Program-made: the position numbers and the translations under genes
IMG/VR virus record: IMGVR_UViG_3300047476_002078
Location: 106,802 to 170,801 of that record
Source of the DNA: a virus
Length of the DNA: 64,000 nt
Strand: one strand, 5' to 3'
The notes under the pieces: generated by a model
What the model was told of the DNA's origin: nothing
The model's database searches: none
Seen by the model: only the letters and a program-made list of their open reading frames with translations
Part shown: positions 9,730-59,386 of the stretch, one piece after another
How the letters are laid out: each line of letters starts with the position of its first letter
How positions within the stretch are numbered: position 1 is the first letter of the stretch

Positions 9730-9745
9730 GTGGATTCGGTAAAGC
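9730..9745 (+). repeat. start-associated element, variant copy
   Basis: GTGGATTCGGTAAAGC, 33 bases before the ATG at 9763; first copy in the window. The downstream YGA is missing. GGAG lies between it and the start. Confidence 0.75.
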
Positions 9746-9762
9746 CTATACAGGAGAATTTT

Positions 9763-9930
9763 ATGAATTTCATTTGGGTACAATATGGAAGCGAACAGTG
9801 GAAAAGAATGACAAATGTTGTTTATTTAGACTACATGGGGAATAAGGTTCCTTATGGTTGGATTACGTGGGAAACGGAAGTAATGCAAGACGGAACTAAG
9901 ATGGCAAAAATGGTTTGGACTCGGTTTTAA
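9763..9930 (+). CDS. hypothetical protein (55 aa)
   Basis: Start at 9763 after CAGGAG; the in-frame ATG at 9715 would translate through the element and is rejected. Trp/Tyr-rich (NFIWVQYGSEQWKRM), small beta-type protein of unknown role. Confidence 0.6.
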   Translation: MNFIWVQYGSEQWKRMTNVVYLDYMGNKVPYGWITWETEVMQDGTKMAKMVWTRF

Positions 9931-9967
9931 TTTTGCCAAACACTATTCCGAAATGTAGCATTTATTC

Positions 9968-10180
9968 ATGGAAAAACTAAGACTATTTGCTAAAAAAGAT
10001 ATTAAGGTCGTTGAAAGTTTCATCAAAGCAGGACAAGAAGTAAGGATAGGAAAAATATCCCAATCGCAATCAAAGTTCATGCTCATTTGTGCAGAAGATA
10101 ATTTGCATAAATGGTGTGAAATGTCTGAGTATGAAGAATTAGTGGAGGATAGAATTATTTATGACGAACACAAATATTGA
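9968..10180 (+). CDS. hypothetical protein (70 aa)
   Basis: Small beta-rich protein (FIKAGQEVRIGKISQSQSKFML), possibly an SH3-like barrel. Overlaps the next gene by 20 bases. Confidence 0.55.
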   Translation: MEKLRLFAKKDIKVVESFIKAGQEVRIGKISQSQSKFMLICAEDNLHKWCEMSEYEELVEDRIIYDEHKY

Positions 10181-10430
10181 TACTTTTCAGTCAACGAGAG
10201 TTTTTCTCACTCCTAGCGGTGAGTATGTTTTGGCTTTACCTATTTTTGCCGATGAGAAAGGCTCTATATTTAATAAATCAGACATGGAGAAAATGACTGG
10301 TGTTTCTGTTTCAGTCGGGTTTTATGACCATATAGGATACATCATTTATCACCCAGAATTCGGAGAGCATTTAATGAACAGAGAAGTGACAGATTCGTTC
10401 TTTGAAGACTTAGGTTCATTAAATGAATAA
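10161..10430 (+). CDS. hypothetical protein (89 aa)
   Basis: Start after GGAGGA inside the previous gene. Not recognised; acidic C-terminus. Confidence 0.55.
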   Translation: MTNTNIDTFQSTRVFLTPSGEYVLALPIFADEKGSIFNKSDMEKMTGVSVSVGFYDHIGYIIYHPEFGEHLMNREVTDSFFEDLGSLNE

Positions 10431-10671
10431 GGTTTTAGATATTCTAAAAGGTTTTTCATTTTGGCAAAAAACTAACATTAAAGAAAGTCGAGTCCTTATT
10501 GCTTTCCACCATCCAAGAAGCATTACTTGGCTTTTTACAGTTTGGGTCGGCAGAGAAAGATTTGGTTCAAAATTTAAGTTAGCCTGCCATAATGGGAATT
10601 TTTTAATTGTGTTGTTTGGATATTATTTATCTTTGGACACTCAAAAACAAATGTGGAGAGAATATGAATAA
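10423..10671 (+). CDS. hypothetical protein (82 aa)
   Basis: Aromatic, basic small protein; overlaps neighbours on both sides by 8 bases, as is usual in this operon. Not recognised. Confidence 0.55.
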   Translation: MNKVLDILKGFSFWQKTNIKESRVLIAFHHPRSITWLFTVWVGRERFGSKFKLACHNGNFLIVLFGYYLSLDTQKQMWREYE

Positions 10672-10969
10672 CCTTCGGTATATCATTAGAAATGGAGAAA
10701 AAGTTCTTCAATTTTCTGAAACAGTTCCGGAGTATGGCAGAACTGAAGATAACCAATTAGTAGTCATAGGCATGAATACTAATTGGCAGGATGTCCCTCT
10801 ATGCGAAGATGAAAACCAAATTTTCAATACTAAAATAAGTGTGGATGCTAAATACAAAGAAGCTTTATCCATTTTAAAAGACATGGTTGATGATGAATGG
10901 GGAACTGACTATTGTGACGGCTTTACAATGAGAGCTAAAGAGTTTTTAGAAAAATTTGAAGAGGGGTAA
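10664..10969 (+). CDS. hypothetical protein (101 aa)
   Basis: ATG at 10664 after GGAGAG. Acidic; the C-terminal half is helical. Its stop codon lies inside the terminator hairpin that follows. Confidence 0.6.
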   Translation: MNNLRYIIRNGEKVLQFSETVPEYGRTEDNQLVVIGMNTNWQDVPLCEDENQIFNTKISVDAKYKEALSILKDMVDDEWGTDYCDGFTMRAKEFLEKFEEG

Positions 10970-10985
10970 AGACCTCTCTTTTTAT
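10961..10985. terminator. terminator between convergent genes
   Basis: GAGGGGT / ACCTCTC 7-bp stem with an AAAG loop, then a T-rich run. The stop codon of 10664-10969 is part of the stem. Confidence 0.7.
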
Positions 10986-11287
10986 TTTAAAAGAGTCATA
11001 AAATCCATATTATCCATTAGAGTAGCGTATGGGCTAAAATTATCAAAAACTGCTCCCATATAACTTGTCATTCCATAACCATTTTTATGACATTTATAAA
11101 CACTTCCGCTGTAACCATGAAAAAGATAATACTCGCCTTCTTCTTCCACTTTAGTCACACCGCTATTTAATTTCCACGATTGACCTCCGAGATAACTCCC
11201 TGCCCAACCAGCAAAAACTTTATAAACTTCTTCTTTATCATTTTTTAGTTTTAACATTACCCAACGATCAGGAATATAAGTGCTCAT
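10982..11287 (-). CDS. hypothetical protein (101 aa)
   Basis: Start at 11287 (MSTYIPDRWVML) because AGAGG precedes it; an upstream ATG at 11305 lacks a site. Gly/Tyr/Trp-rich beta protein (FAGWAGSYLGGQSWKLNSG, VYKCHKNG). Minus-strand singleton inside a plus-strand operon. Confidence 0.6.
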   Translation of the reverse strand: MSTYIPDRWVMLKLKNDKEEVYKVFAGWAGSYLGGQSWKLNSGVTKVEEEGEYYLFHGYSGSVYKCHKNGYGMTSYMGAVFDNFSPYATLMDNMDFMTLLK

Positions 11288-11336
11288 AAAAACCTCTTTT
11301 AACATTATAGACTGTTTGCCATAATGAATATTTTAT

Positions 11337-11350
11337 TTTACGGTAAAATA
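11337..11350 (+). promoter_or_regulatory. TTTACGGTA box
   Basis: TTTTACGGTAAAAT, 15 bases before the ATG at 11365, in the divergent gap. One of about twelve such boxes; AGAGG follows. Promoter role inferred. Confidence 0.4.
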
Positions 11351-11364
11351 AAGTAAGAGGTCAA

Positions 11365-11622
11365 ATGAAATACGCTAAAGATTATGCAGAAGATTGTTAT
11401 GAGCATATTAAAAATTTTGATTTGCAGTCGAAGGAAATAATAGTTAGTGCTATAGAATTAGCTATTTTGAGAAGACTAGAAGATTACAAGAATAAAGTTT
11501 ATTTTCCTCTGTTGGAAGAAAACAAGCTTTTAAAAAATTTAGTACATATTGCAGGAGAAGATTTAAAAGCTGGGGAAATTGTTACACTATCAGACAATAA
11601 AGTTTATAAAGGAATAAAATGA
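11365..11622 (+). CDS. hypothetical protein (85 aa)
   Basis: Helical N-terminal two thirds, then LKAGEIVTLSDNKVYKG, a small barrel-like end seen in phage proteins. Starts a new plus-strand run. Function unknown. Confidence 0.6.
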   Translation: MKYAKDYAEDCYEHIKNFDLQSKEIIVSAIELAILRRLEDYKNKVYFPLLEENKLLKNLVHIAGEDLKAGEIVTLSDNKVYKGIK

Positions 11623-11864
11623 AAGATTTGCTTTTACAAGCACCAGATTCTCAAATTGACGCTCAATTAAAAAATCTAATAGGTAAATGGAGTGAACCTC
11701 CTAAGTCTATCGAAGTTTTAGAGTCTCTCGATCATTGTGTTAGGTACTCTTCAGGTAGTGATTTTGTTGTTTCTGTTTTGAGAGCAATTCTTGAACAATC
11801 TATGAAAGTAGAAAATACAGATTATGATACAGTAGTGTCACAAGCCACTTGGAGAAATATTTAA
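11619..11864 (+). CDS. hypothetical protein (81 aa)
   Basis: Helical, no recognised domain; overlaps by ATGA upstream and TAATG downstream. Confidence 0.6.
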   Translation: MKDLLLQAPDSQIDAQLKNLIGKWSEPPKSIEVLESLDHCVRYSSGSDFVVSVLRAILEQSMKVENTDYDTVVSQATWRNI

Positions 11865-12172
11865 TGGAATGGATAATGCTTGCACATTTTATAGGAGATT
11901 TTGTCGCACAAACTGACTGGCAGGCAAAGAATAAAAGCAAAAGCAACAAAGCTCTTTTGTCACACACTTCAATATACACTTTGTTTTTAATTCCCTTCGG
12001 TTTAAAATACGCCATAGTAAATGGTTTAGCCCATACAGTAATTGATTTTTTTACTTCCAGAGAATCCTCAAAAAGATGGTCTAATGGAGAAGTACACAAT
12101 TTCTTTGTTGTGATAGGTTTTGACCAATATCTTCATTTTCTAACTTTATATTTAACTTGGAAACAGTTTTAA
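11864..12172 (+). CDS. DUF3307 family membrane protein (102 aa)
   Basis: HFIGDFVAQTDWQAKNKSKS...HTSIYT and the following hydrophobic segments match the DUF3307 family of phage and bacterial membrane proteins (pattern HxxGDFxxQxDWxAxxK). Three hydrophobic helices. ATG at 11864 after GGAGAAA; the upstream TTG is rejected. The biochemical role of the family is unknown. Confidence 0.7.
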   Translation: MEWIMLAHFIGDFVAQTDWQAKNKSKSNKALLSHTSIYTLFLIPFGLKYAIVNGLAHTVIDFFTSRESSKRWSNGEVHNFFVVIGFDQYLHFLTLYLTWKQF

Positions 12173-12182
12173 GGAGGTTGTA

Positions 12183-12506
12183 ATGAAACTATCGGAAGTA
12201 ATTAAAAAAGCCAGAGTTGGTGGATATTTCAGAAGACCTTGTTGGTCTGGAGAAAGCTGGCTAGTAGTTAAAGAAGATAATTCTATTAAATTTAGGTCAA
12301 CTGGAAATAAATGGACACCTAAGTTGGAAGACTTGGATGCAGATGACTATCAGTATCAAGTTCAAAATGAAATGTGGGAAATTTGGTGTGAAAATGAAAA
12401 TGGTGAAATTTGTATTCATCCAAAACTCATTACTGAAAATCAAAAAAGTGAATTTAATAACATTGTAATCAGTAAAAAGCATATCATCACAAGAGGCTTA
12501 AATTGA
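12183..12506 (+). CDS. Tad2/DUF2829-like protein, possible Thoeris anti-defence
   Basis: Residues 1-60 follow the DUF2829 layout: a helix (LSEVIKKARVGG), then an R-R-P-C-W strand (YFRRPCWSGESWLVV), then W-x-P-x3-D-L-x-A-x-D (WTPKLEDLDADDY). In known members (Tad2) this fold sequesters the Thoeris cyclic ADP-ribose signal. The C-terminal 45 residues are extra. AAGGAGG precedes the start. The adjacent Lar-like gene supports an anti-defence patch; the assignment rests on a short motif match. Confidence 0.5.
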   Translation: MKLSEVIKKARVGGYFRRPCWSGESWLVVKEDNSIKFRSTGNKWTPKLEDLDADDYQYQVQNEMWEIWCENENGEICIHPKLITENQKSEFNNIVISKKHIITRGLN

Positions 12507-12721
12507 GTCAAAATTTCGTGATACCCTTTGGTAAATATAAAAATTACGATTTACTTCATGTGGCTGAAAGTGAACCAAAATATTTAATTTGGCTTGATTC
12601 AGTAGCGGAAGGTAATTTGAAAGTTGCTTTAGAATCATTTTTAAATTCTAAGTATTTTAAAGACTGCTTGATTGAACATGAGTACGAAGATAACGAAGAA
12701 GATATGTGGGATTGGAATTAA
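12503..12721 (+). CDS. DUF3820 / ExoX C-terminal-like protein (72 aa)
   Basis: IPFGKYKNYDLLHVAESEPKYLIWL is the conserved FGKYKG...YLxWL motif of DUF3820, also found after the exonuclease domain of ExoX and alone in phages. No nuclease domain is attached. A nucleic-acid-processing accessory role is only a guess. Begins with TTG overlapping the preceding stop. Confidence 0.65.
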   Translation: MSQNFVIPFGKYKNYDLLHVAESEPKYLIWLDSVAEGNLKVALESFLNSKYFKDCLIEHEYEDNEEDMWDWN

Positions 12722-12906
12722 TGGAAATTAAAAAATGCCCTGAATGTGGAAATGATTCTGGAGACGTAGAATTTGAGGATAGAATAAGCCATTTTGCTTT
12801 TGTTGAATGTTTGACTTGCAGACACAGATCAGACTCTATTGAAGGTCGAACAAAAGAGGAAGCGATAGAAAAAGCTATAGACCTTTGGAATAAAGAGAGG
12901 AAATAA
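12721..12906 (+). CDS. Lar-like zinc-ribbon protein, possible restriction alleviation
   Basis: 61 residues: CPECGND near the N-terminus, CLTC in the middle and an EEAIEKAIDLWNKE tail reproduce the Lar family layout (CPxCG ... C..C ... EAI..WN). Lar modulates type I restriction in Rac/lambdoid phages. TAATG overlap with the previous gene; start set at 12721 rather than an upstream GTG. Confidence 0.6.
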   Translation: MEIKKCPECGNDSGDVEFEDRISHFAFVECLTCRHRSDSIEGRTKEEAIEKAIDLWNKERK

Positions 12907-13169
12907 TGAAACCTTTTGAAATAAAAGTTGTAACAGACGGTGGTCTTTGGGTTGAACATAATTACCCTTGCCCTATTTATTCAAATTTAAACAGTGTTTA
13001 TGATATGGATAAAGGCATTTTTAAGCCATCTTGGGTTGCTCAAAAAAGAGGCTGGAATATCGTGTGTGCTGACACTTGGTTTAAGAGAATGATTTTGAGA
13101 TACTTATTTAAAACAGATAATGTTCCAAGTTCACTCTATAAAGAGCAACTTAAAAAGTTAAAAGATTGA
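12906..13169 (+). CDS. hypothetical protein (87 aa)
   Basis: Trp-rich small protein, no known domain; GAGGAAATAATG start, one-base overlap with the Lar-like gene. Confidence 0.6.
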   Translation: MKPFEIKVVTDGGLWVEHNYPCPIYSNLNSVYDMDKGIFKPSWVAQKRGWNIVCADTWFKRMILRYLFKTDNVPSSLYKEQLKKLKD

Positions 13170-13510
13170 AATTATTTAATTTTTCACGAATTTTTGAATT
13201 TTTCATTCCAATGAAAAATGAAAACAAGTGCAAAATACACAAATGGAATTTTGAAACAGTATCTTGTGGGTATTGTTTGTTAGAAAAATTATTCGGAGAT
13301 GTAAAAATGCAAGATCAAGTCACAGGAACATTTTATCTTGTAAAAAATAAAAATATTGTTGGTGAAGCCGTTGTAATGAGTTTAACCAATGTTGTTTTTC
13401 ATCTTTATTCAGATATAAGAAACACACAAAATACGACTTACGAACAAATAACTAAAAAGTATAAACTTGAAAGAGTCATTGGGAATTCTTTCTTAAAAGG
13501 AAAACAGTGA
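13166..13510 (+). CDS. hypothetical protein with zinc-binding-like cluster (114 aa)
   Basis: CKIHKWNFETVSCGYC gives a C-x2-H ... C-x2-C cluster at about residues 22-37. The TTG at 13166 overlaps the preceding TGA but has no clear Shine-Dalgarno; ATG at 13211 is an alternative that would keep the cluster. Confidence 0.5.
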   Translation: MKLFNFSRIFEFFIPMKNENKCKIHKWNFETVSCGYCLLEKLFGDVKMQDQVTGTFYLVKNKNIVGEAVVMSLTNVVFHLYSDIRNTQNTTYEQITKKYKLERVIGNSFLKGKQ

Positions 13511-13698
13511 TTCAATATTTTAAAGAAGGTTCAAAAGTATATTTCAAAGAAGGGCAGTATCAAGGACTCATAGGTGAAGTCTTAGGAGATGATTGTGTTT
13601 TGCTTACAGTAAAAGTAAAACTGACAGATGATAAAATTGTAGAGGTTCAAAATTTAGTTCTTCAAAAAGCTCCTGAAATAAAGAAAGAATATTTATGA
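13507..13698 (+). CDS. small SH3-like/KOW-type protein (63 aa)
   Basis: KEGSKVYFKEGQYQGLIGEVLGDD reads as a small beta barrel with the G-x-x-G turn of KOW modules. GTG start overlapping TGA. Function unknown. Confidence 0.5.
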   Translation: MIQYFKEGSKVYFKEGQYQGLIGEVLGDDCVLLTVKVKLTDDKIVEVQNLVLQKAPEIKKEYL

Positions 13699-13895
13699 AA
13701 ATAAAGCAATCCGAAGTTATACAAAAACTTGCTAAACTATTCGATTCTATACCAGAAGAAGCGAGCAGTTATCATGTATGTGACATGCTTATGTATAAAG
13801 CAGAAAAAATGGGACTACTTATTAAAGAGGAACATGATGAGGAGTATTATTACATATTACAAACTGTAATAAAAACAGATGAAAAAAATATTTAA
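13695..13895 (+). CDS. hypothetical protein (66 aa)
   Basis: Acidic helical protein ending 17 bases inside the next gene. Not recognised. Confidence 0.55.
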   Translation: MKIKQSEVIQKLAKLFDSIPEEASSYHVCDMLMYKAEKMGLLIKEEHDEEYYYILQTVIKTDEKNI

Positions 13896-14496: not shown

Positions 14497-14515
14497 TTAT
14501 CCTTTATTTAATGCG

Positions 14516-14531
14516 GTGGAATCGGTATAGC
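14516..14531 (+). repeat. start-associated element
   Basis: Perfect 16-mer, followed by CTC-TGA and GGGAGG; 42 bases before the ATG at 14558. Confidence 0.9.
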
Positions 14532-14557: not shown

Positions 14558-14755
14558 ATGATGCCTGATTTTACAAGACTTATGGCTTTTGAAAACGGTG
14601 AGTTAAATAATGAAGAAACTGTTGAATTATTCTCAGAGCTAGTTAAATCTGGCATGGCATGGCAATTACAAGGGTTCTATGGAAGAACTGCAAAAAGTAT
14701 GATCGAACAAGGGTATTTAGACGGGGAAGGTAACATCCTCAGTTATGGAGAATAG
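14558..14755 (+). CDS. conserved small phage protein (65 aa)
   Basis: FENGELNNEETVELFSELVKSGMAW-QLQGFYGRTA is a widely distributed phage family pattern (E-x-GEL...LF..L...G.AW.LQG.YGR.A). Function unknown. ATG at 14558 or 14561. The G of its TAG stop is the first base of the next element. Confidence 0.7.
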   Translation: MMPDFTRLMAFENGELNNEETVELFSELVKSGMAWQLQGFYGRTAKSMIEQGYLDGEGNILSYGE

Positions 14756-14770
14756 TGGAATCGGTATAGC
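14755..14770 (+). repeat. start-associated element
   Basis: Perfect 16-mer overlapping the upstream stop by one base; followed by CTT-TGA; 37 bases before the ATG at 14792. Confidence 0.9.
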
Positions 14771-14791: not shown

Positions 14792-15604
14792 ATGAAACTT
14801 TCTCAAAAATATATCGAAACCATTAAAGCCGAAATGAAAGGCAAACGCTTAGAGAAATTTTTAGCGTCTGTCCAAAGCATAAATGACTCACTGGATGCAG
14901 GAGGATGGCTTCCAAAAACCTCCAGATCAGCCGATTCAGGCTTCTACCAAGGTAGCGGTATTGATGCCAGACATATCGAAAGAGAACACCGAGAATTCTT
15001 TCCACTCTATATGACACTAGCTTACGGCGGAGCGTTTGAGAAAAGGAAAGAGGGTAAATCCTTAGAAGATTTGCTTCCACTACTCGATAAGAAAACTCTC
15101 AAAAAACACTCAATACAATTTGTTAAATCATGGGTAGCTCTTTGTGGAGAAAAGGATAAAGCTGTAGCCTACCTCAATAGCCTACGCCCTTTACCAGTTA
15201 AAACAGAAATTGGTCTATCGCCAAAAGTGACTACAACCCTCAAAGAAATGAATCTCGACATTGATCTTCCATCCATTAAGATGGCAAAAATCAACTACTT
15301 CTTTATTCCAAAAAGAAACCTCAAAACAGGTGAACAAATATACGGTCAAAACGGTGAATGTCTCCTTGACCACGAATACTACGTAGAATGGTCAGAAGGT
15401 ATCGTACACAACCAATCAAGGTTCAATCGCTTTGGATACTGTCAAGCTTGCGGTAAAAACATCCCTTCTGGAAGGTTCGTGCCAATCGAAGCCAAAGATA
15501 AAAAATCGAACAATCTAGTATCTTTCTGGGTCGGGTGCGACTGTGCCAAAAACATCTTCGGTATCAAAGACGAAGGTATCAAACAGGGAGTGGAATCGGT
15601 ATAG
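14792..15604 (+). CDS. zinc-finger protein ending in VESV (270 aa)
   Basis: C-terminal zinc cluster: CQACGKNIPSGRF (residues about 218-230) and VGCDCAKNIFG (about 249-259), a C-x2-C ... C-x-C arrangement seen in phage proteins. The N-terminal 200 residues are helical and unrecognised. The codons use more C in third positions than neighbours, which suggests a separate origin. The last four residues and stop are encoded by the next element (GTG GAA TCG GTA TAG). Starts 22 bases after its own element. Confidence 0.65.
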   Translation: MKLSQKYIETIKAEMKGKRLEKFLASVQSINDSLDAGGWLPKTSRSADSGFYQGSGIDARHIEREHREFFPLYMTLAYGGAFEKRKEGKSLEDLLPLLDKKTLKKHSIQFVKSWVALCGEKDKAVAYLNSLRPLPVKTEIGLSPKVTTTLKEMNLDIDLPSIKMAKINYFFIPKRNLKTGEQIYGQNGECLLDHEYYVEWSEGIVHNQSRFNRFGYCQACGKNIPSGRFVPIEAKDKKSNNLVSFWVGCDCAKNIFGIKDEGIKQGVESV

Positions 15605-15605
15605 C
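15590..15605 (+). repeat. start-associated element used as coding sequence
   Basis: Perfect 16-mer lying in frame at the end of the zinc-finger gene so that it encodes VESV-stop; followed by ATT-TGA and GGGAG; 40 bases before the ATG at 15630. Confidence 0.9.
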
Positions 15606-16515: not shown

Positions 16516-16516
16516 A

Positions 16517-26641: not shown

Positions 26642-26977
26642 ATGAAACGGAAAACTTACAGCTTAAACCAGTTCGACAAACAATTAGAAGACTTAGCAAA
26701 AGTCTATATGGACCACTACATACAACTCAATCAAAACACCTATGCGGTAATCTCCTTACCAAAAACCATAGACGGAACACGAGCCTATACATATTCCCTA
26801 GTAAACATCGAAACAGGAAAAGCTGAAAGCTCATTCTGCCAATTCGCTGACTATAGCGATATGCTACTCAATATGAGCCTGCACCATAAACTTGGATTTG
26901 AAGACGAAATGCTATGGAACGCCACAGTATGCCTTATAGAAGGAAGGAAAAAGAATACAATGGTGGAATCGGTATAG
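26642..26977 (+). CDS. hypothetical protein ending in VESV (111 aa)
   Basis: ATG at 26642; the long in-frame extension to 26576 overlaps the previous gene and is rejected. Alpha/beta protein, unknown. Its last four codons and stop are the 5' part of the following element (VESV-stop). Confidence 0.6.
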   Translation: MKRKTYSLNQFDKQLEDLAKVYMDHYIQLNQNTYAVISLPKTIDGTRAYTYSLVNIETGKAESSFCQFADYSDMLLNMSLHHKLGFEDEMLWNATVCLIEGRKKNTMVESV

Positions 26978-26978
26978 C
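26963..26978 (+). repeat. start-associated element used as coding sequence
   Basis: Perfect 16-mer encoding VESV-stop of the upstream gene; followed by CTC-CGA and GGAGG; 43 bases before the ATG at 27006. Confidence 0.9.
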
Positions 26979-27245: not shown

Positions 27246-27261
27246 GTGGATTCGGTAAAGC
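27246..27261 (+). repeat. start-associated element, variant
   Basis: GTGGATTCGGTAAAGC followed by ACC-TGA and GGAG; 42 bases before the ATG at 27288. Confidence 0.8.
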
Positions 27262-32030: not shown

Positions 32031-32046
32031 TCTATACCGATTCCAC
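32031..32046 (-). repeat. start-associated element at a gene's 3' end, no gene after it
   Basis: GTGGAATCGGTATAGA on the minus strand; encodes VESV-stop of gene 32032-32430 and is followed by the terminator, not by a gene. The only copy in this position. Confidence 0.75.
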
Positions 32047-32446: not shown

Positions 32447-32500
32447 GATGGAGTAGTCAGTTCTCCATCTTTGTTTCTCGGAGGGCTATACCGATTCCAC
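32447..32500 (-). promoter_or_regulatory. start-associated element with a downstream hairpin (minus strand)
   Basis: Perfect 16-mer at 32500-32485 on the minus strand, followed by CCTC-CGA. A GATGGAG/CTCCATC hairpin (32447-32469) separates it from the Shine-Dalgarno. A GGTGGAATAATAC half-copy precedes it. Confidence 0.75.
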
Positions 32501-32799
32501 CATAGTATTATTCCACCCTTGTACTCCATAGTTTCACCTTGGACTCCGTTTCGGATTCCAGTCTCACCTTGGACTCCAGTATTCTTGATTTTAGTAACAA
32601 TTTTTGTTTAGCGGAAATTCCTGATTAAAATCGTTGACATGATGCGTCCGAGAATAGTTCTTTTAGGTAGGGTTATCTAAGCATAAATAAAATCCAGTTA
32701 TCTGGAATTTCCGTATAACTGCTTTTTGTTTAGCTTCCCAACAGGGACAGTTTTTGTCTTTCTGTTGCTGCGGATGGTTGGGTTACTCCGGGCAAAATG
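32501..32799. other. gap of about 300 bases between divergent genes
   Basis: No gene. TCACCTTGGACTCC occurs twice (about 32534 and 32562). TTGACATGATG at 32634 could be a -35, but no good -10 is visible. Confidence 0.4.
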
Positions 32800-32815
32800 G
32801 TGGAATCGGTATAGC
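32800..32815 (+). repeat. start-associated element
   Basis: Perfect 16-mer, then ACT-CGA and GGGAGG; 42 bases before the ATG at 32842. Confidence 0.9.
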
Positions 32816-33148: not shown

Positions 33149-33172
33149 GCCTCCCGTTTTGGGAGGCTTTTT
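33149..33172 (+). terminator. rho-independent terminator
   Basis: GCCTCCC-GTTTT-GGGAGGC followed by T5. Immediately before another element copy, so that copy must act with new transcription or read-through. Confidence 0.85.
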
Positions 33173-33179: not shown

Positions 33180-33260
33180 GTGGAATCGGTATAGCGGTTG
33201 AGTGCGAAAAGGGAACGCTGACCTGACTCTACCATGGTAGGGGGAGGTACATACAGGGAG
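33180..33260 (+). promoter_or_regulatory. start-associated element with long leader, copy A
   Basis: Perfect 16-mer at 33180-33195 (GGT-TGA after it), not followed by a start codon. Instead GAGTGCG...CGC...GACTC pairing and the 12-bp palindrome CTACCATGGTAG (33229-33240), then GGGGGAGG. The same leader recurs at 33866. It lies 8 bases after a terminator, which favours a promoter function. Confidence 0.6.
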
Positions 33261-33282
33261 GGGGGAGGAGAAATGGAATTGG

Positions 33283-33298
33283 GTGGAATCGGTATAGC
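33283..33298 (+). repeat. start-associated element
   Basis: Perfect 16-mer, then ATC-TGA and GGAGGAG; 45 bases before the ATG at 33328. Confidence 0.9.
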
Positions 33299-33865: not shown

Positions 33866-33945
33866 GTGGAATCGGTATAGCCTTCGAGACGGCGAAAGGG
33901 CAACGCAGATACCCGACTCTACCATGGTAGGGGGAGGAGCTACCG
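33866..33945 (+). promoter_or_regulatory. start-associated element with long leader, copy B
   Basis: Perfect 16-mer at 33866-33881 (CTT-CGA after it), then GCGAAAGGGCAACGC, GACTC and CTACCATGGTAG (33919-33930) followed by GGGGGAGG, aligned with copy A at 33180. The palindrome contains an ATG from which a 15-residue frame runs to the TAG of the next element. Confidence 0.6.
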
Positions 33946-33956
33946 CTCGGAGTACG

Positions 33957-33972
33957 GTGGAATCGGTATAGC
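33957..33972 (+). repeat. start-associated element
   Basis: Perfect 16-mer, then CTC-TGA and GGAGG; 41 bases before the ATG at 33998. Confidence 0.9.
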
Positions 33973-34381: not shown

Positions 34382-34397
34382 GTGGAATCGGTATAGC
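34382..34397 (+). repeat. start-associated element
   Basis: Perfect 16-mer immediately after the TAG stop at 34381; CAG-TGA and GGAGG follow; 39 bases before the ATG at 34421. Confidence 0.9.
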
Positions 34398-34922: not shown

Positions 34923-35138
34923 ATGAAATTGGATGTAAATTTTGTTGGAAGGCGTAGTGGTGCTTTGGGAGTTACCTACGAGATTAGGGAGACTTTGGAA
35001 GTACCAGATAACATCACTTTTGAAGAGTTTCGTATGAAACTTTACGAAGTTGGTTATGAGTGTATCAATCTTGACGTGCGAGATGTTTACGTATCAGGAA
35101 CGAACGACCGTCATTTTTATGATAGGGCAAGAGCATAG
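34923..35138 (+). CDS. hypothetical protein (71 aa)
   Basis: Beta-alpha module (EIRETLEVPDNITFEEFRMKLYEVGYE). The final G of its TAG is the first base of the next element. Confidence 0.6.
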   Translation: MKLDVNFVGRRSGALGVTYEIRETLEVPDNITFEEFRMKLYEVGYECINLDVRDVYVSGTNDRHFYDRARA

Positions 35139-35153
35139 TGGAATCGGTATAGC
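35138..35153 (+). repeat. start-associated element
   Basis: Perfect 16-mer overlapping the preceding stop by one base; CTT-CGA and GGAGG follow; 41 bases before the ATG at 35179. Confidence 0.9.
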
Positions 35154-36839: not shown

Positions 36840-36855
36840 GTGGAATCGGTATAGC
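36840..36855 (+). repeat. start-associated element
   Basis: Perfect 16-mer, then AGG-TGA and GGAGG; 41 bases before the ATG at 36881. It follows a 270-base gap without genes, so it cannot serve only translational coupling. Confidence 0.9.
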
Positions 36856-37177: not shown

Positions 37178-37193
37178 GTGGAATCGGTATAGC
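37178..37193 (+). repeat. start-associated element
   Basis: Perfect 16-mer, then AGG-CGA and GGGAG; 35 bases before the ATG at 37213. Confidence 0.9.
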
Positions 37194-37212: not shown

Positions 37213-37821
37213 ATGAAAACAATGATGATTATGAAGACGACAATTGTAATAGTGCTCATGCTTAATCTTGTAAGCTGTGCAAGTAAAAAGACATTCGGAG
37301 ATGGAGCCTATGAGACTGCGGATTATTCCGAACAACCTACCCACTGGGAAGACAGGTTCAATGAGTGGGATAGCCGAGAGCTTATCAAAGGTTCACTGGA
37401 ATCTTTCGGAGTGTGTGGTTTACGGAAAAATCACATCTATATGATTGCAAACTTTGAGAACCAGACTTCAGAAGAACTTGATATGGCTCAACTGAAGCGA
37501 GAAATGATCGACCAGATTCAGCTTCGAGGTTTATCGGTTGTGGATAAAGATTCCCGACCTGATATTCATCAAGAGCATGAATACAATGCGACAGGATACG
37601 TGAACCCTACCAAAGCCGCCGTAAAAGGTAAGCAGGAAGGAGTGGAGATTCTTTTGAGAGTGGCAGTATCTTCTAAAACTCAGGTATCCCCAGATCGAAA
37701 TGAAAAGACTGTCAGATACAAACTATCAGTACAAGGAGTTGATATGGAATCAGCACTTGTGAAATGTACAGGGTTAGCGGAAGTTAAAAAACGCTACCAA
37801 CGTGTACGTGAGGCTTTTTAG
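37213..37821 (+). CDS. LpoB-like outer-membrane lipoprotein (202 aa)
   Basis: Signal peptide with lipobox LVSC (residues 19-22). The mature part has the LpoB/PBP-activator plan: WDSRELIKGSLESF, IANFENQTSEELDMAQLKREMIDQI, VDKDSRPD, then QEGVEILLRVAVSSK and YKLSVQGVDMESALVKCTG. In enterobacteria LpoB is an outer-membrane activator of penicillin-binding protein 1B. A phage copy might alter host peptidoglycan synthesis, or it may be virion- or lysis-related. Family assignment rests on motif order. Confidence 0.6.
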   Translation: MKTMMIMKTTIVIVLMLNLVSCASKKTFGDGAYETADYSEQPTHWEDRFNEWDSRELIKGSLESFGVCGLRKNHIYMIANFENQTSEELDMAQLKREMIDQIQLRGLSVVDKDSRPDIHQEHEYNATGYVNPTKAAVKGKQEGVEILLRVAVSSKTQVSPDRNEKTVRYKLSVQGVDMESALVKCTGLAEVKKRYQRVREAF

Positions 37822-41321: not shown

Positions 41322-41337
41322 GCTATACCGAATCCAC
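41322..41337 (-). repeat. start-associated element (minus strand)
   Basis: GTGGATTCGGTATAGC reading leftward, then AAC-CGA and GGAGG; 42 bases before the ATG at 41295. Back to back with the plus-strand copy at 41356. Confidence 0.85.
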
Positions 41338-41355: not shown

Positions 41356-41371
41356 GTGGAATCGGTATAGC
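41356..41371 (+). repeat. start-associated element
   Basis: Perfect 16-mer, then CAT-TGA and GGAG; 38 bases before the ATG at 41394. It is divergent from the minus copy 18 bases to its left. Confidence 0.9.
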
Positions 41372-41836: not shown

Positions 41837-41852
41837 GTGGAATCGGTATAAC
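41837..41852 (+). repeat. start-associated element, variant
   Basis: GTGGAATCGGTATAAC; CAA-CGT replaces the usual YGA. GGAG follows; 42 bases before the ATG at 41879. Confidence 0.8.
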
Positions 41853-43318: not shown

Positions 43319-43334
43319 GTGGAAGCGGTATCAA
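43319..43334 (+). repeat. start-associated element, degenerate
   Basis: GTGGAAGCGGTATCAA, 38 bases before the ATG at 43357; the position is conserved though the last bases and YGA are lost. Confidence 0.6.
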
Positions 43335-44710: not shown

Positions 44711-44745
44711 AGAAAAGGCACTCAAAGTAGTGCCTTTTCTTTTTT
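44711..44745. terminator. bidirectional terminator
   Basis: AGAAAAGGCACT / AGTGCCTTTTCT, perfect 12-bp arms with a 6-base loop, T-rich on both strands, between convergent genes. Confidence 0.9.
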
Positions 44746-45018: not shown

Positions 45019-45034
45019 GTGGAATCGGTATAGC
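45019..45034 (+). repeat. start-associated element
   Basis: Perfect 16-mer with ACC-CGA after it, the best pairing of all copies (TCGG with CCGA); 37 bases before the ATG at 45056. Confidence 0.9.
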
Positions 45035-45588: not shown

Positions 45589-45604
45589 GTGGAATCGGTA
45601 TAGC
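45589..45604 (+). repeat. start-associated element
   Basis: Perfect 16-mer, then AAT-TGA and GGAGG; 41 bases before the ATG at 45630. Confidence 0.9.
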
Positions 45605-45920: not shown

Positions 45921-45936
45921 GTGGAATCGGTATAGC
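45921..45936 (+). repeat. start-associated element
   Basis: Perfect 16-mer, then AAC-CGA and GGGGAAG; 39 bases before the ATG at 45960. Confidence 0.9.
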
Positions 45937-46283: not shown

Positions 46284-46299
46284 GTGGAATCGGTATAGC
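46284..46299 (+). repeat. start-associated element
   Basis: Perfect 16-mer, then GAG-TGA and GGAGG; 36 bases before the ATG at 46320. Confidence 0.9.
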
Positions 46300-47655: not shown

Positions 47656-47671
47656 GTGGAATCGGTATAGC
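47656..47671 (+). repeat. start-associated element
   Basis: Perfect 16-mer, then ATC-CGA and GGAGG; 44 bases before the ATG at 47700 and 28 bases after a terminator. Confidence 0.9.
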
Positions 47672-47699: not shown

Positions 47700-48074
47700 A
47701 TGGCGTACATATCAACAGAAGAAATCAAAGAAATGAGAGATGCCCTTAAAAATGAATTTAATGGCAAAAATAACCGTAAACTGAAACTATCTGTAACTAG
47801 ACGACACTACTCAACCGTAGTCGTTTCCATCATGGAAGGGGACTTGGAATTCAAAGAAGGTTACATCCAATTAAACCCATACTACCTCAAAGAACATTGG
47901 AAAGATCATCCCGAAGAACTTGCGGTACTTCAAAAAATCTCTGAAATCGTCAACGGAATCAAAAAAGAAGAAAATCGAAACGCAGGCGACCCATACGCAG
48001 ACTATAGCGACTATAACTACTACTTCGACCTACACGTAGGAAAATGGGATAAACCTTACAAAAAAGTAGCCTAG
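47700..48074 (+). CDS. hypothetical protein (124 aa)
   Basis: Alpha/beta protein: STEEIKEMRDALKNEFNGKN, then KLKLSVTRRHYSTVVVSIMEGDLEF and a C-terminal aromatic part (YADYSDYNYYFDLHVG) resembling a phage/bacterial family with the NYYFDLHVG end. Function unknown. The G of TAG starts the next element. Confidence 0.65.
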   Translation: MAYISTEEIKEMRDALKNEFNGKNNRKLKLSVTRRHYSTVVVSIMEGDLEFKEGYIQLNPYYLKEHWKDHPEELAVLQKISEIVNGIKKEENRNAGDPYADYSDYNYYFDLHVGKWDKPYKKVA

Positions 48075-48089
48075 TGGAAGCGGTATAGC
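48074..48089 (+). repeat. start-associated element, variant
   Basis: GTGGAAGCGGTATAGC, then CGA-CGA and GGAG; overlaps the previous stop by one base; 32 bases before the ATG at 48106, the shortest distance found. Confidence 0.8.
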
Positions 48090-48473: not shown

Positions 48474-48489
48474 GTGGAATCGGTATAGC
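48474..48489 (+). repeat. start-associated element
   Basis: Perfect 16-mer, then AAG-TGA and GGGG; 34 bases before the ATG at 48508. Confidence 0.9.
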
Positions 48490-54586: not shown

Positions 54587-54587
54587 T

Positions 54588-54917: not shown

Positions 54918-55111
54918 GCATCGGACCATTGTACCAGTATCAAGTGTATTACGATATTCAAAAGGAAGGCGTGTGGAAGTATAACCAAATCTACCGCACG
55001 GATTTACGGTATAAGGGCAAGCATGAACAAGCCACTGGTGAAGCGGAGGAGTGGATACGTGCCAATATTGCCTGTGATGATTATCGGGTAACGAAAGTGG
55101 TATGTGATTAA
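54914..55111 (+). CDS. hypothetical protein (65 aa)
   Basis: GTG start overlapping the previous stop. Aromatic alpha/beta (YQYQVYYDIQKEGVWKYNQIY) with EEWIRANIA. Confidence 0.5.
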   Translation: MSIGPLYQYQVYYDIQKEGVWKYNQIYRTDLRYKGKHEQATGEAEEWIRANIACDDYRVTKVVCD

Positions 55112-55121
55112 GGAGAAGGGC

Positions 55122-55331
55122 ATGAATGATGGAGTGGTAGATAACCAATTACTGTTAATGGCGTTAGCGGCGTTGGTGAACCATAAGCACGGTGGATTAG
55201 TGGAGATACCCAAGGCAGAGCTAGAGGTATTGGATGTGTGTGACGTGGCATGGGGATACGATAGTGAGCGTGAGGTATTGGTATTGAAGGTGAGTAACCG
55301 CACGGAGCACGGTACAGATACAGGCGAATAG
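55122..55331 (+). CDS. hypothetical protein (69 aa)
   Basis: ATG at 55122 after GGAGAAGGGC. Contains LLLMALAALVNHKHGG and a strand-rich C-terminus (VLVLKVSNRTEHG), reminiscent of a small phage family (VxxAxxxLVxxHGG), unknown function. Confidence 0.55.
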   Translation: MNDGVVDNQLLLMALAALVNHKHGGLVEIPKAELEVLDVCDVAWGYDSEREVLVLKVSNRTEHGTDTGE

Positions 55332-55690
55332 TCGAATAGCTTACTCGTGGGAGCTAACGGTGAATGGGTACACCGCACGGTTCACGGTATAATGACTATA
55401 TGCTTTCTTCGCAGAATACATATAGTAGGAAACACGGTGAAACATATTTGTGCGGTGAGAACGTGAACACGGTAACAAGCACTTAGACGTATTAGGGCGA
55501 AAGCCTTTAATAAGTCATTGTGCGTTAATAAGTGAACCGTGCGGATATACGTTGTGAATCACTTGAGTTTGCTAATGACTTTCGCTAGTGTTAGAACAGT
55601 GAATCCGTGCGGTAGTAATTTACGGTGAATCCGTGCGGTAGTAATTTACGGTGAATCCGTGCGGTAGATAATAATTTAAGGAGTATTGAC
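55332..55690. other. non-coding gap rich in CGGTA / CCGTGC half-sites
   Basis: No gene. Half-sites such as ACCGCACGGTTCACGG (55373), AACACGGTGAAAC, GTGCGGTGAG, AACACGGTAAC and ACCGTGCGGAT occur on both strands. TATAAT (55388-55393) gives an extended -10-like GGTATAATG. The three-copy 26-bp repeat ends it. Confidence 0.6.
55599..55676 (+). repeat. three tandem 26-bp repeats
   Basis: Units start at 55599, 55625 and 55651, each GTGAATCCGTGCGGTAGTAA followed by TTTACG; the third diverges at its end. The unit contains the GTGCGGTA box and is 15-92 bases upstream of the ATG at 55691. Confidence 0.85.
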
Positions 55691-55981
55691 ATGGAAATGG
55701 AATCGGCAAAACAACCAGTATTGAATATTTACCCTCCGATGCGTTGGGTACGTTATGAGAATGGCGTGATGATACTACAGGTATTAACGTCGATAGGCGA
55801 AGGTAAGTCTGCGTGGTTAAATGTGCCTACGGTGGACGCTTCCAGCGTGTACCTTGAGAAGAGTGAACCTGTATCTGTGAATCTGGGCGGTAATTCGGAA
55901 GTTAAGGCGGAGAGAGGAACTTTTTCTTTGGATGAGGCGAAGGCGGATAAAAAGAGCAAGTTTTGGGGTCGCAAGAAGTGA
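55691..55981 (+). CDS. hypothetical protein (96 aa)
   Basis: AAGGAGT start. Beta-rich (RWVRYENGVMILQVLTSIGEGKSAWLNVPT), then a charged tail. Directly after the triple repeat; candidate target of whatever binds it. Confidence 0.6.
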   Translation: MEMESAKQPVLNIYPPMRWVRYENGVMILQVLTSIGEGKSAWLNVPTVDASSVYLEKSEPVSVNLGGNSEVKAERGTFSLDEAKADKKSKFWGRKK

Positions 55982-56100
55982 AAGATGTATTCTATTCGGT
56001 AATATTGTTTTTGATTCTTGTGGCATTTTTAGGGAAGAGTGGAGTCACTTTTACGATTAATGATAAGGCTTATTCTGTGAAGATTGGCTTTAATAATTGA
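55978..56100 (+). CDS. small membrane protein (40 aa)
   Basis: GTG start overlapping TGA. One transmembrane helix (YSVILFLILVAFLG) and a short strand-rich tail. Confidence 0.5.
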   Translation: MKDVFYSVILFLILVAFLGKSGVTFTINDKAYSVKIGFNN

Positions 56101-56354
56101 GTAATTTTGGCTTTATTAGGTTTATGAACTGTAATATTTGTGGAAATATTGGTGAAGTTTGGGAGAGACGAGAAGGTTATTTCGAGAATCCCGAACTGAA
56201 GTGGAAATTAATTGAGTGCCCTGCCTGTTTAGGCTCCTGTACTAAGGCTATTATTGAATCCCCCAAAATAATCATCAAACCTAGTTTTTTAATGCGTTTA
56301 AAAATGTATTTTATTTCTATTTACCGTAAATTTCGGCAATTATGTCGTAGATAA
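56097..56354 (+). CDS. zinc-ribbon protein (85 aa)
   Basis: CNICGNIGEVWERREGY...CPACLGSC gives C-x2-C ... C-x2-C; a basic aromatic C-terminus follows. The TTG at 56097 overlaps TGA but lacks a Shine-Dalgarno; ATG at 56124 is an alternative that keeps both knuckles. Confidence 0.55.
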   Translation: MSNFGFIRFMNCNICGNIGEVWERREGYFENPELKWKLIECPACLGSCTKAIIESPKIIIKPSFLMRLKMYFISIYRKFRQLCRR

Positions 56355-56370
56355 ATATTTAGAGGAAAAA

Positions 56371-56727
56371 ATGAATCACTTGATTGAATATTTGAATTTC
56401 AAATTAGAGCAAGCTCGTTACAGTAAGTTAAACCTGACAGAAATACTTTCATTCGTGAAAGAAGAGATTGTTAATTGTCTTTCTGAAGCACAGCGTATTG
56501 AGCAAGAAAGAGATGAGTTATTCAATAAGGTACAAGAACTGCAAAAGCAGAACGATGAATTAGCGAAGCACACTTTGAAGCATCCTAATTCATACAAATC
56601 TCAGTTAGAACGACTCGAAGCTGAGAACACGAGACTTCGTAGTGACAATGAAATGTTGCGATCTGCGAAAGCTGTTCCTACGTCTGCGATCATGCCGACT
56701 AGAAACAGTAGCTCTCGTTGGAATTAG
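56371..56727 (+). CDS. coiled-coil protein (118 aa)
   Basis: Central coiled coil (RIEQERDELFNKVQELQKQNDELA and QLERLEAENTRLRSDNEML), Ser-rich end. AGAGGAAAA start. Unknown. Confidence 0.6.
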   Translation: MNHLIEYLNFKLEQARYSKLNLTEILSFVKEEIVNCLSEAQRIEQERDELFNKVQELQKQNDELAKHTLKHPNSYKSQLERLEAENTRLRSDNEMLRSAKAVPTSAIMPTRNSSSRWN

Positions 56728-56763
56728 TAACAGAATTAACTGTTACTGCAACAAGGAGTTTGA

Positions 56764-57261
56764 ATGAAGTCATTTAGAATTGGAGCAATTGTAGTATTAG
56801 CTTTTTTGCTCAGTGTAAGCAGTTTTGCTATGAGCAAATTTGATATTATAGACGCTATACGCAAAGTTGCAAAAATAAATGATGTAAATGAGACGTTAGC
56901 CCTTTCTATTGCTGAAGTTGAATCTGGATTTAATCCGCAAGCTTTACGATACGAGCCGAAGTTTAAGACTTACAGTGTAGGACTCTTTCAGATTTTTGTT
57001 CCAACTTCGAGAGCACTAGGATTCAAAGGCTCCCACTTAGAACTTCAACAACCAAACATTAACATTGAACTAGGCATTAAACATTTGCGAATATGTACCG
57101 ACCGTTTCAAAGACAATGTAGCTAAAATAGCTTGTTGCCATAATGCAGGTTACGCCGTTAAAGAATCTGTGTGCCGAAACAATGTTCATGTTAAAGAATA
57201 CGTTCGCAAAGTTCTCTATGCTTATCAAAAACGACAAAATAACGCACTTGCTCTAAATTAG
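56764..57261 (+). CDS. exported lytic transglycosylase, SLT family (165 aa)
   Basis: Signal peptide (residues 1-22, ending SSFA). The SLT domain has LALSIAEVESGFNPQALRY, with catalytic Glu53 in VESGFNP, SVGLFQIFVPTSRALGF and AKIACCHNAGYAV. Muramidase-type enzymes of this kind cleave peptidoglycan between MurNAc and GlcNAc in the periplasm, at entry or lysis. Short for the family; the cell-wall-binding part is missing. AAGGAG start. Confidence 0.85.
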   Translation: MKSFRIGAIVVLAFLLSVSSFAMSKFDIIDAIRKVAKINDVNETLALSIAEVESGFNPQALRYEPKFKTYSVGLFQIFVPTSRALGFKGSHLELQQPNINIELGIKHLRICTDRFKDNVAKIACCHNAGYAVKESVCRNNVHVKEYVRKVLYAYQKRQNNALALN

Positions 57262-57575
57262 CGAAATCTCGAAAATGCCCCAAAAAATTTTTTTCCTCTC
57301 AAAGAGGAAAAGATAGAATAGTTGACACATTGCATAAATTAAAAATTTGAATCTACCCTAAAAAAACGGATTTACTATAAAGATTTATGCAATGTGTAAA
57401 ATAAAAATTCGCTATTTCCCTAAAAGAACGGATTCACTCATTTACATCACGACGAACTTGCAATGGAAAACACGACGAACTCGATATACCAACACGACGC
57501 ACACGAAAGAAAAAAATAAAAACAAATTACGGTAAAAAATTGACAGTAACTTGAAATCAACTCAAACTTATAAAC
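57262..57575. other. non-coding gap with inverted and direct repeats
   Basis: 314 bases with no gene. ACACATTGCATAAAT (57325-57339) and ATTTATGCAATGTGT (57383-57397) are a perfect 15-bp inverted repeat 43 bases apart. A 21-base direct repeat (CCCTAAAARAACGGATTYACT) lies at 57356 and 57418. CACGACGAACT-type units occur at 57448, 57471 and 57493. An ATTACGGTAAAA box (57536) and TTGACAG (57541-57547) follow. Origin or operator cluster is the simplest reading. Confidence 0.6.
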
Positions 57576-58268
57576 ATGAGTTACAAAATTAAGTACGGCG
57601 AAAACGGCGAAATAGAATGTGTGTCAGTCCCTCTAAAAAATTCTGAAATTGCGTTTTGTAAAGAGTTCGCACAGAAATGCACAGCGACCAACCAAGACCA
57701 ATACAGATTGAGAAATCAGCACGACCCTGAAATGATTCAGCTTCAAATTTACTTTGGAAAAATAGCCGAGGTTGCGGTTTGCCGTTTTTTACGGAGTCAA
57801 GGCTTGCAAGTTTCCGCACCTGACTTTGGAATATACTCTAAAGAAGCTAAAAGCTGGGCTAGGGACATGGTTTGCATCAAGGACGGCGTTACATACCCAA
57901 TCCATTCAAAATGCACTACGCTCGAAACTAAGAGGCTCTACACGCTGTCTTGGATTGTACAATTCGGAGGCATAGGGCGAGGACACTTAGATAAGGAAAT
58001 CTTTGAGGCAAAAAGTGGCTTGATGGCTTGTTGTTGCCCGAATGAAGAAGACGAGAATGTAATTGATATATACGGCTTTATTCCTGTGTCTGATCTGCAC
58101 GAACACCATTTACTCAAGATGCCCGGAAAAAATGCTCTTAAAGGCACGAAGAGGGCTTTATACTATTGCGATGTGAGAGTAGTAGAGCATAATGAAGAAT
58201 TAAATTTACGGTGGAATTTTGTAACACCAAAAATTCCTATGACCAATCCTCCTGAAATCAGCATTTAA
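57576..58268 (+). CDS. PD-(D/E)XK nuclease-like protein (230 aa)
   Basis: YFGKIAEVAVCRFLRSQGLQVSAPDFGIYS ... WARDMVCIKDGVTYPIHSK: a Glu-bearing helix, acidic residues and a strand ending in Lys fit the restriction-endonuclease fold. A Cys cluster (ACCCPNEED) lies at about 150. Related in layout to 16871. Its promoter is in the repeat-rich gap, which suggests tight control. Confidence 0.45.
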   Translation: MSYKIKYGENGEIECVSVPLKNSEIAFCKEFAQKCTATNQDQYRLRNQHDPEMIQLQIYFGKIAEVAVCRFLRSQGLQVSAPDFGIYSKEAKSWARDMVCIKDGVTYPIHSKCTTLETKRLYTLSWIVQFGGIGRGHLDKEIFEAKSGLMACCCPNEEDENVIDIYGFIPVSDLHEHHLLKMPGKNALKGTKRALYYCDVRVVEHNEELNLRWNFVTPKIPMTNPPEISI

Positions 58269-58276
58269 AATAAATG

Positions 58277-58306
58277 TTGACTGGTAGCGTTAGATTAAGC
58301 TAATAT
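58277..58306 (+). promoter_or_regulatory. sigma70-like promoter
   Basis: TTGACT (58277-58282), 18-base spacer, TAATAT (58301-58306); 200 bases upstream of the ATG at 58508. Confidence 0.55.
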
Positions 58307-58420
58307 AGAGGCATAGTTTTTCACCCGATGGAATCAAGTATTCAAGTAGGGGGAATGGAAAATTGTGTCAAAACCACTTCTTTTTTATTCCCAAATACAT
58401 TCAAATACTTAGCCCTTCGA

Positions 58421-58507
58421 GTGGATTCGGTATAGCCCTTATGAGGTTTAACTGACCTGAAGGTATCAAATAGGTGATACAAGTAAGGTTTTTCCGTAGG
58501 AGGAAAT
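58421..58507 (+). promoter_or_regulatory. start-associated element with long leader
   Basis: GTGGATTCGGTATAGC at 58421-58436; 87 bases to the ATG instead of about 40. Between them GTATCA-AATAGG-TGATAC can fold (58463-58480); AGGAGG precedes the ATG. Together with the sigma70-like promoter this would give two start points or an RNA leader. Confidence 0.65.
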
Positions 58508-59386
58508 ATGAAAGATAAAGACAAGAAAATCGTTTTGTCGTTAGGGACAAAGAAAGTTGAGGAGCCACAACAGCCAAAGCCTGTTGGGGTTGGTGTGAAA
58601 TCAGCACTTGATCTTTTCAACAACGCCCCCACAGTAGAAAAAGTTGAAAAGAAAAAAGCAGGGAAGAAAGAACGAGAAGAAGTAGAGATTGATGATTTAG
58701 ATAAACTAGCTTCGTTCAAAGTGTTAGAAAAAGTTTTAGAGCAAGAAGCTAAAGGTCTTCAAGCGAGAATCAGAGAAGAGGTTGTTAATTTCTTTGCCGA
58801 AAGAATGGCAGAAACAGGACAGACTCTTAGTTCGTTTGTAGGAATTGACGATTGCTCTACTGCATCATGTGAGATTCGCAGAAAAGGTTCTAATATGCCA
58901 TTAGACCCAGAGACAGTTGAAAGACTAATCGGTGCAGGTCTTGAGTCATGTATTAACCGAAATGTAAAAGTTCCTGAGCGTTTGATTCTTAACCCGAACC
59001 TTTCGCAGGATTCTCTGGTACGACTAGCCGAGCTTGTTAAGAACGATGCGGTTTTGAAAAATGAAGTTGTAGTTATGAGACAAGAAGAAGAGTTTACTTG
59101 CGTTGTTTCGGAGTCAGGTCTTGACTTGATTGCAAAATCTCGCAATGCAGAATTGATCTTGAGTGTTATTGAAAAGATGGCTACATTTGCCATCGGAAAG
59201 TTCAAGATTGATGGCGAATCAATCGAGCAAGGTAAAGATGATGACAAGTGCGTTACACCTAATGCGAAGAAACGAGCAATCGAATCACTTATCTCTTTCG
59301 GAGTATTGCCTCAACCTGAAGTTGTTGCAGTAAAAAAGAAAGCTACTAAGAAAAAAGACAATGGTGAAGGTGAAGGTTTACAGTAG
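58508..59386 (+). CDS. hypothetical protein with Lys/Pro-rich ends (292 aa)
   Basis: A charged N-terminal 70 residues, a globular helical middle (residues 75-260) with NFFAERMAETGQTLSSFVGID and FTCVVSESGLDLIAKSRN, and a Lys-rich tail (KKKATKKKDNGEGEG). AGGAGG, its own promoter and a strong terminator suggest high expression. A single-stranded-DNA-binding or scaffold-like role is a guess from the layout only. Confidence 0.6.
   Translation: MKDKDKKIVLSLGTKKVEEPQQPKPVGVGVKSALDLFNNAPTVEKVEKKKAGKKEREEVEIDDLDKLASFKVLEKVLEQEAKGLQARIREEVVNFFAERMAETGQTLSSFVGIDDCSTASCEIRRKGSNMPLDPETVERLIGAGLESCINRNVKVPERLILNPNLSQDSLVRLAELVKNDAVLKNEVVVMRQEEEFTCVVSESGLDLIAKSRNAELILSVIEKMATFAIGKFKIDGESIEQGKDDDKCVTPNAKKRAIESLISFGVLPQPEVVAVKKKATKKKDNGEGEGLQ

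Follow-up and report, generated by a model that had tools for sequence, protein, structure and literature searches.

How might a very large virus mark a set of small, dispersed genes for joint expression? The question is raised by a stretch of 64,000 nucleotides (hereafter, the window), bases 106,802-170,801 of the 355,874-bp IMG/VR record IMGVR_UViG_3300047476_002078, in which the 16-bp sequence GTGGAATCGGTATAGC (hereafter, the element) recurs ahead of individual genes. At up to three mismatches the window contains 28 matches, compared with 0.24 expected from the shuffled sequences that an earlier note on this DNA had proposed as a control. These comprise 21 perfect copies and 7 variants, 25 on the plus strand and 3 on the minus strand. 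The earlier note had listed 29 copies; its 21 perfect and three minus-strand copies were recovered, together with 7 of its 8 variants with one to three changes and 25 of its 26 plus-strand copies, and the 29th is probably the sequence GTGGAAGCGGTATCAA at position 43319, which has 4 mismatches. As noted previously, the window is free of copies up to 9.7 kb and again from 48.5 to 58.4 kb. Copies also occur outside the window: a scan of the whole record at up to two mismatches, likewise suggested in the note, found 36 (31 forward and 5 reverse), and the reversed pattern, used as a control at the same threshold, gave 0 matches. Twenty-seven of the 36 copies are concentrated in one 45-kb stretch, where the guanine-plus-cytosine (GC) content is 38% as against 33% in the remainder.

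Alignment of the copies defines the full element as R-GTGGAWTCGGTATAGC-MNNYGARA, with a purine at position -1 and with this tail replacing the NNYYGAR proposed previously. Conservation spans position -1 to about +24, whereas no base upstream of -2 is conserved over 60 positions, and the flanks are unrelated at most copies. The information held in the element amounts to 33.6 bits, compared with the 14.3 bits needed to mark 36 sites in a genome of this size.

The position of the element relative to genes is as constrained as its sequence. A ribosome site and an ATG follow 15-29 bases past the element in 29 of the 36 copies, as opposed to 0.8% of 20,000 random positions; measured from the start of the element, the distance to the ATG is 31-45 bases for most copies, in keeping with the 32-46 bases reported earlier. 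The exceptions are the copies at 32031 (minus strand), 33180 and 33866, which lack a gene of their own, and those at 32485 (minus strand) and 58421 (plus strand), which lie 70 and 87 bases from the ATG, respectively; 33180 and 33866 are each the upstream copy of a tandem pair. Within strings of genes, many copies come directly behind a stop codon, and in the shortest leaders, at 48074 and at genome position 19005, about 4 bases separate the element from the start of the ribosome site. Two pairs of divergent genes have copies placed back to back, 18 bp apart at window positions 41322/41356 and 14 bp apart at genome positions 206233/206263. In addition, a terminator-like hairpin lies within 150 bases upstream of 4 of the 36 copies (3 distinct hairpins), whereas among 502 control starts 7 have one (Fisher p 0.004; 0.02 when distinct hairpins are counted); one such hairpin, a strong one, ends 12 bases before the 33180 copy and another 29 bases before the 47656 copy. 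No consensus sigma-70 site is present on the plus strand between the hairpin at 44711 and the copy at 45019, and between 30 and 49.5 kb such sites do not exceed the shuffle level (30 found, 42.9 expected). Only 4 of the 33 proteins encoded downstream of the element have detectable relatives in ten other phages, and a search of viral contigs for relatives of two of the regulon genes found none. There is good support for the original proposal that a start-associated element defines a phage regulon.

From features that are directly observed (the copies, their orientation and spacing, the terminator and divergent-pair context, and the absence of the element elsewhere, described below), we infer a function, and with it a start point, a timing and a polymerase: the element is probably a phage-specific promoter, one that serves single genes and short operons. 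On this reading, the GTGGAWTCGG-TATAGC block that the copies share would lie at about -20 to -5, TATAGC would be the -10 region, and the RNA would begin at the conserved purine stretch Y-G-A-R, at about position 21 of the element, where YGAR resembles an initiator. The resulting leader would comprise 10-30 bases with a normal ribosome site. Because the back-to-back copies are only 18 and 14 bp apart, the divergent pairs leave no room for another promoter, and the ribosome sites that lie about 4 bases past the element imply that the RNA starts inside the element or immediately past it. A conserved -35 box is lacking; specificity would therefore reside in the unbroken block next to the -10 region. 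The presumed regulon consists mostly of small, lineage-specific, non-structural genes, such as might be expected of early or middle genes for host takeover. A reading of the element as the miniature open reading frame GTG-GAA-TCG-GTA-TAG was rejected, since the stop codon is lost in two copies and no ribosome site lies ahead of it.

The record is that of a huge tailed phage. It encodes a major head protein, tail sheath, baseplate wedge, head protease and large terminase, along with DNA polymerase A, a clamp loader, ribonucleotide reductase, helicases and sugar-nucleotide genes; a probable portal is recognizable by gene order and conservation. A 20-kb stretch found no DNA-level match among GenBank phages. 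Among named phages, its closest relative is LR745208.1, a metagenomic phage of 485 kb, with which it has the portal (43% identity), the major head protein (33%) and the terminase in common. Most shared proteins are 25-45% identical, and a protein of 289 amino acids (genome 302637-303506) reaches 75% identity to its LR745208.1 counterpart. The element is essentially absent elsewhere and is therefore not a general host promoter. Its exact sequence was not found in other IMG/VR contigs, a comparison that may omit records of this genome or of very close ones, and its occurrence in one stretch among 84,980 prokaryote genomes looks like chance. The same holds for the single matches that a relaxed pattern gave in one genome contig and in five viral contigs. 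LR745208.1 and 29 related records show nothing beyond the background at 2-3 mismatches; the nearest fragments (L025 and L026) were recovered only by way of the head-protein region, so that absence there says little. Five tandem near-matches in one relative are probably coding repeats of a collagen-like type, and the CTTGATTCGGTATAGC match in G004/G005 appears to lie inside a gene read in the other direction. No RNA family in Rfam corresponds to the element, and no earlier description of it was found in the literature searched, in line with the note, which knew of none.

LR745208.1 lacks GTGGAATCGGTATAGC, but an unbiased count of dispersed 11-12-mers, which picks out the element in the present phage, revealed a different array of its own there. 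Read towards the genes, its sites have the form GATTTCnCTAAA-N15-RCCGATAGGG, followed by TGAGG and then ATG (for example, at 1609, 12951, 15298 and 464699, loci L036-L060). At exactly this spacing, TAAA-N15-RCCGATA occurs 49 times in LR745208.1, compared with at most 3 times at any of ten other spacings, and it occurs in none of ten other phages checked. The bacterial sigma-28 consensus is TAAA-N15-GCCGATAA, and the array, which matches it, looks like one of sigma-28-type promoters. Similar to the element, these are near-identical, start-associated sites distributed phage-wide ahead of mostly small genes, and both have (T/G)ATAG, 4-5 bases and YGAR ahead of the ribosome site; the array differs in having two boxes and another sequence. 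A sigma-28 type was rejected for the element itself, as the present phage contains 0 TAAA-N15-GCCGATAA sites. No orthologous gene pair carrying both elements was detected, in a test that is approximate because the LR745208.1 starts are uncertain, and five other large relatives showed no comparable dispersed array by 11-mer counts.

What, then, might read the element? No match to a single-subunit, T7-type polymerase (PF00940) was obtained in the phage, although T7 itself, used as a control, was detected at E 9.9e-110; the most likely reader, and our best guess, is therefore the host RNA polymerase with a specificity factor made by the phage. Several observations weigh against the promoter interpretation as a whole. 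Sigma region 2 (PF04542) was not found in this phage or in LR745208.1, with positive controls, though a divergent sigma factor is possible. A protein with two sigma-4-like helix-turn-helix parts is encoded at genome 188546-189178, near the terminase and clamp-loader genes, but it was rejected as the recognizer because all 16 of the related phages examined encode it, irrespective of whether they carry the element; it is a candidate small terminase or late regulator, and LR745208.1 holds a second copy of it. Moreover, two copies of the element head geneless leaders and one heads nothing, the terminator evidence comprises three hairpins only, and TATA reads the same in both directions, so that the copies of a divergent pair might in principle each serve the opposite gene.

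The reader could also be a divergent RNA polymerase encoded by the phage, in the manner of phiKZ, AR9 or T7. This is a special case of the promoter interpretation, with which its weight overlaps, and taken alone it seems rather unlikely. The block is unbroken and near-invariant, is followed 5 bases downstream by a conserved G and has approximately 36 copies, which brings it close to the AR9 early promoters, and the excess of information recalls T7 promoters. Against it, the phage proteins gave no match to RpoB, PHROGs scans of the large proteins revealed no polymerase among them, and phiKZ proteins used as queries retrieved nothing polymerase-like; the RpoC model also gave no match but is blind to phiKZ itself, so that these searches argue only weakly against a phiKZ-type polymerase. 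Furthermore, the LR745208.1 array resembles a bacterial sigma-28 promoter.

That the element acts instead as RNA, in leaders transcribed from upstream promoters and bound by a phage or host protein or a small RNA that controls translation, a role suggested for the cluster K start-associated sequences, is unlikely. Its single orientation relative to genes, its proximity to their starts and the many copies directly after stop codons inside gene strings are all compatible with such a role, and the phage encodes an RRM-type RNA-binding protein. Yet the divergent pairs, and the copy 12 bases past a terminator, leave no space for a separate promoter, the distance to the ATG varies over 15-29 bases, a leader segment duplicated in the tandem pairs folds no better than shuffles, and the -35/-10 spacing of the LR745208.1 array makes sense only on DNA.

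Still less probable is an operator, at which a repressor or activator of the phage would bind DNA overlapping or next to promoters made of standard elements, in the manner of stoperators. A long, asymmetric site in one orientation and of high information does suggest a dedicated protein, and one phage protein matches the integrase family, which makes a temperate habit possible. On the other hand, no conserved promoter hexamers lie beside the element, sigma-70 sites do not exceed the shuffle level, as given above, and the element is strictly tied to single start codons. Finally, a mobile or recombination sequence copied with gene cassettes and devoid of regulatory function, as the 45-kb GC-richer island, the common flanks of one tandem pair and a remnant copy before no gene might suggest, is very improbable, because flanks are unrelated at most copies and the exact offset from the ribosome site, together with scattered copies elsewhere in the genome, needs a function.

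Copies of the element and adjoining features in the window (window coordinates; ATG, downstream start codon).
Feature	Position	Strand	Context
Element, 2 mismatches	9730-9745	+	ATG 9763
Element, perfect	14516-14531	+	ATG 14558
Element, perfect	14755-14770	+	Overlaps stop codon of upstream gene; ATG 14792
Element, perfect	15590-15605	+	ATG 15630
Element, perfect	26963-26978	+	Ribosome site and ATG 27006
Element, 2 mismatches	27246-27261	+	ATG 27288
Element, 1 mismatch	32031-32046	-	No downstream gene; terminator follows at 32004-31983; probably a remnant
Element, perfect	32485-32500	-	70 bases to the first ATG that has a ribosome site (32430); collagen-like repeat fragment just upstream
Element, perfect	32800-32815	+	ATG 32842
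Intrinsic-terminator-like hairpin with T run	33149-33167	+	12 bases before element 33180
Element, perfect	33180-33195	+	Upstream member of tandem pair; no gene of its own
Leader segment GACTCTACCATGGTAGGGGGAGG	33225-33247	+	Identical to 33915-33937
Element, perfect	33283-33298	+	ATG 33328
Element, perfect	33866-33881	+	Upstream member of second tandem pair; no gene of its own
Leader segment GACTCTACCATGGTAGGGGGAGG, second copy	33915-33937	+	
Element, perfect	33957-33972	+	ATG 33998
Element, perfect	34382-34397	+	Directly after stop codon; ATG 34421
Element, perfect	35138-35153	+	Overlaps stop codon; ATG 35179
Element, perfect	36840-36855	+	ATG 36881
Element, perfect	37178-37193	+	ATG 37213, LpoB-like gene
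Element, 1 mismatch	41322-41337	-	Divergent partner of 41356, 18 bp apart; ATG 41295
Element, perfect	41356-41371	+	Divergent partner of 41322; ATG 41394
Element, 1 mismatch	41837-41852	+	ATG 41879, AAA ATPase gene
Probable degenerate copy, 4 mismatches (GTGGAAGCGGTATCAA)	43319-43334	+	ATG 43357, 38 bases on
Element, perfect	45019-45034	+	ATG 45056; terminator-like hairpin 44711-44740 upstream
Element, perfect	45589-45604	+	ATG 45630
Element, perfect	45921-45936	+	ATG 45960
Element, perfect	46284-46299	+	ATG 46320
Element, perfect	47656-47671	+	ATG 47700; terminator-like hairpin ends 29 bases upstream
Element, 1 mismatch	48074-48089	+	ATG 48106; ribosome site begins 4-5 bases after element
Element, perfect	48474-48489	+	ATG 48508
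Element, 1 mismatch	58421-58436	+	ATG 58508, 87 bases on

The leaders of the two tandem pairs (33180-33282 and 33866-33956) have the GACTCTACCATGGTAGGGGGAGG and GCGAAA-GG-AACGC blocks in common; they form no stable fold and match no Rfam family. Among the genes behind the element is one for an LpoB-like lipoprotein, an activator of peptidoglycan synthase (37213-37818), which suggests a Gram-negative host. A small fragment of collagen-like repeat lies at 32530-32580, beside the 32485 copy. A long region of such repeats runs off both ends of the record (genome 347,600-355,874 and 1-500); the record may therefore close into a circle or be permuted at this point, and about 19 kb of collagen-like repeats are present in one relative (G003). 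A second dispersed element, the palindrome TTTACSGTAAA, looks like an operator. It occurs in 22 copies, compared with 1 in a shuffle, mostly between genes (for example, at genome positions 114073, 118138 and 158291, or window positions 7272, 11337 and 51490), and none was found in four relatives. Families of 2OG-Fe(II) oxygenases are unusually expanded, with matches to about a dozen proteins of 105-250 amino acids.

The element offers a sequence-based entry to the timing of genes in huge phages that are known only from metagenomes, and it marks about 33 genes, most of them without relatives, as one regulon. Together with the LR745208.1 array, it implies that distantly related huge phages use dedicated, unrelated promoter alphabets for accessory genes. 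This makes the recognizing factors worth looking for and could supply orthogonal promoters. It is also tempting to speculate, as a doubtful proposition, that the element is read by a transcription specificity system without recognized relatives, either a new phage polymerase or a new type of adaptor of the host polymerase, which requires the unbroken block of approximately 24 bp without a -35 box, and that related huge phages exchange such systems, each lineage having its own promoter alphabet for early genes.

Phage-specific promoter arrays are a kind already known from AR9, phiEco32 and 7-11; the present variant has a long unbroken block, no -35 box and no detected polymerase. The early promoters of AR9 have the form AAATATATATTAT-6N-G at 41 starts (PMC5312081). 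Those of AR9 and phiKZ consist of an extended invariant block with the conserved start G 6 bases downstream; there are about 34-41 of them, each serving a single gene or short operon. The element likewise has an extended block, with a G 5 bases downstream, but its first half is not AT-rich, whereas the AR9 and phiKZ promoters are rich in AT and depend on a multisubunit polymerase of the phage, of a kind not detected here. T7 promoters show a similar excess of information, and T7-type promoters form an unbroken block of about 23 bp that extends to the start, much as the element is conserved from -1 to about +24; the present phage differs in that no gene for a T7-type polymerase was found. The promoters read by the phage sigma factors of phiEco32 and 7-11 are shorter (TAATGTATA and TGATGT), are present in about 6-10 copies and have a known sigma factor (PMC4331800). 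They resemble the element in having a conserved element in the -10 position, with TATA at its end, and no -35 box, but no phage sigma was found in the present phage. The sigma-54 spacing GG-N10-GC is reproduced exactly by TGG-AATCGGTATA-GC; such a promoter was nevertheless rejected, because a start approximately 12 bases after GC would fall in or after the ribosome site of the genes with short leaders (48074 and genome 19005).

The parallels favored in the earlier note were the start-associated sequences of cluster K mycobacteriophages and the stoperators of cluster A. Stoperators are repressor sites that stop transcription; unlike the present element, they have no fixed relation to single start codons, and no repressor was identified in the present phage. 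The cluster K sequences are also short, dispersed and asymmetric, with one orientation before non-structural genes. They are 13-bp sequences (GGGATAGGAGCCC) located 3-7 bp before the start, and they contain the AGGAG Shine-Dalgarno core (PMC3203893), whereas the element has a different sequence, lies 15-29 bp from the ATG and is accompanied by a separate ribosome site. Thus, the start-associated regulon of the earlier note stands, while its cluster K parallel does not and its cluster A parallel seems a poor fit, and a phage-specific promoter fits better with the divergent pairs, the upstream terminators and the LR745208.1 array.

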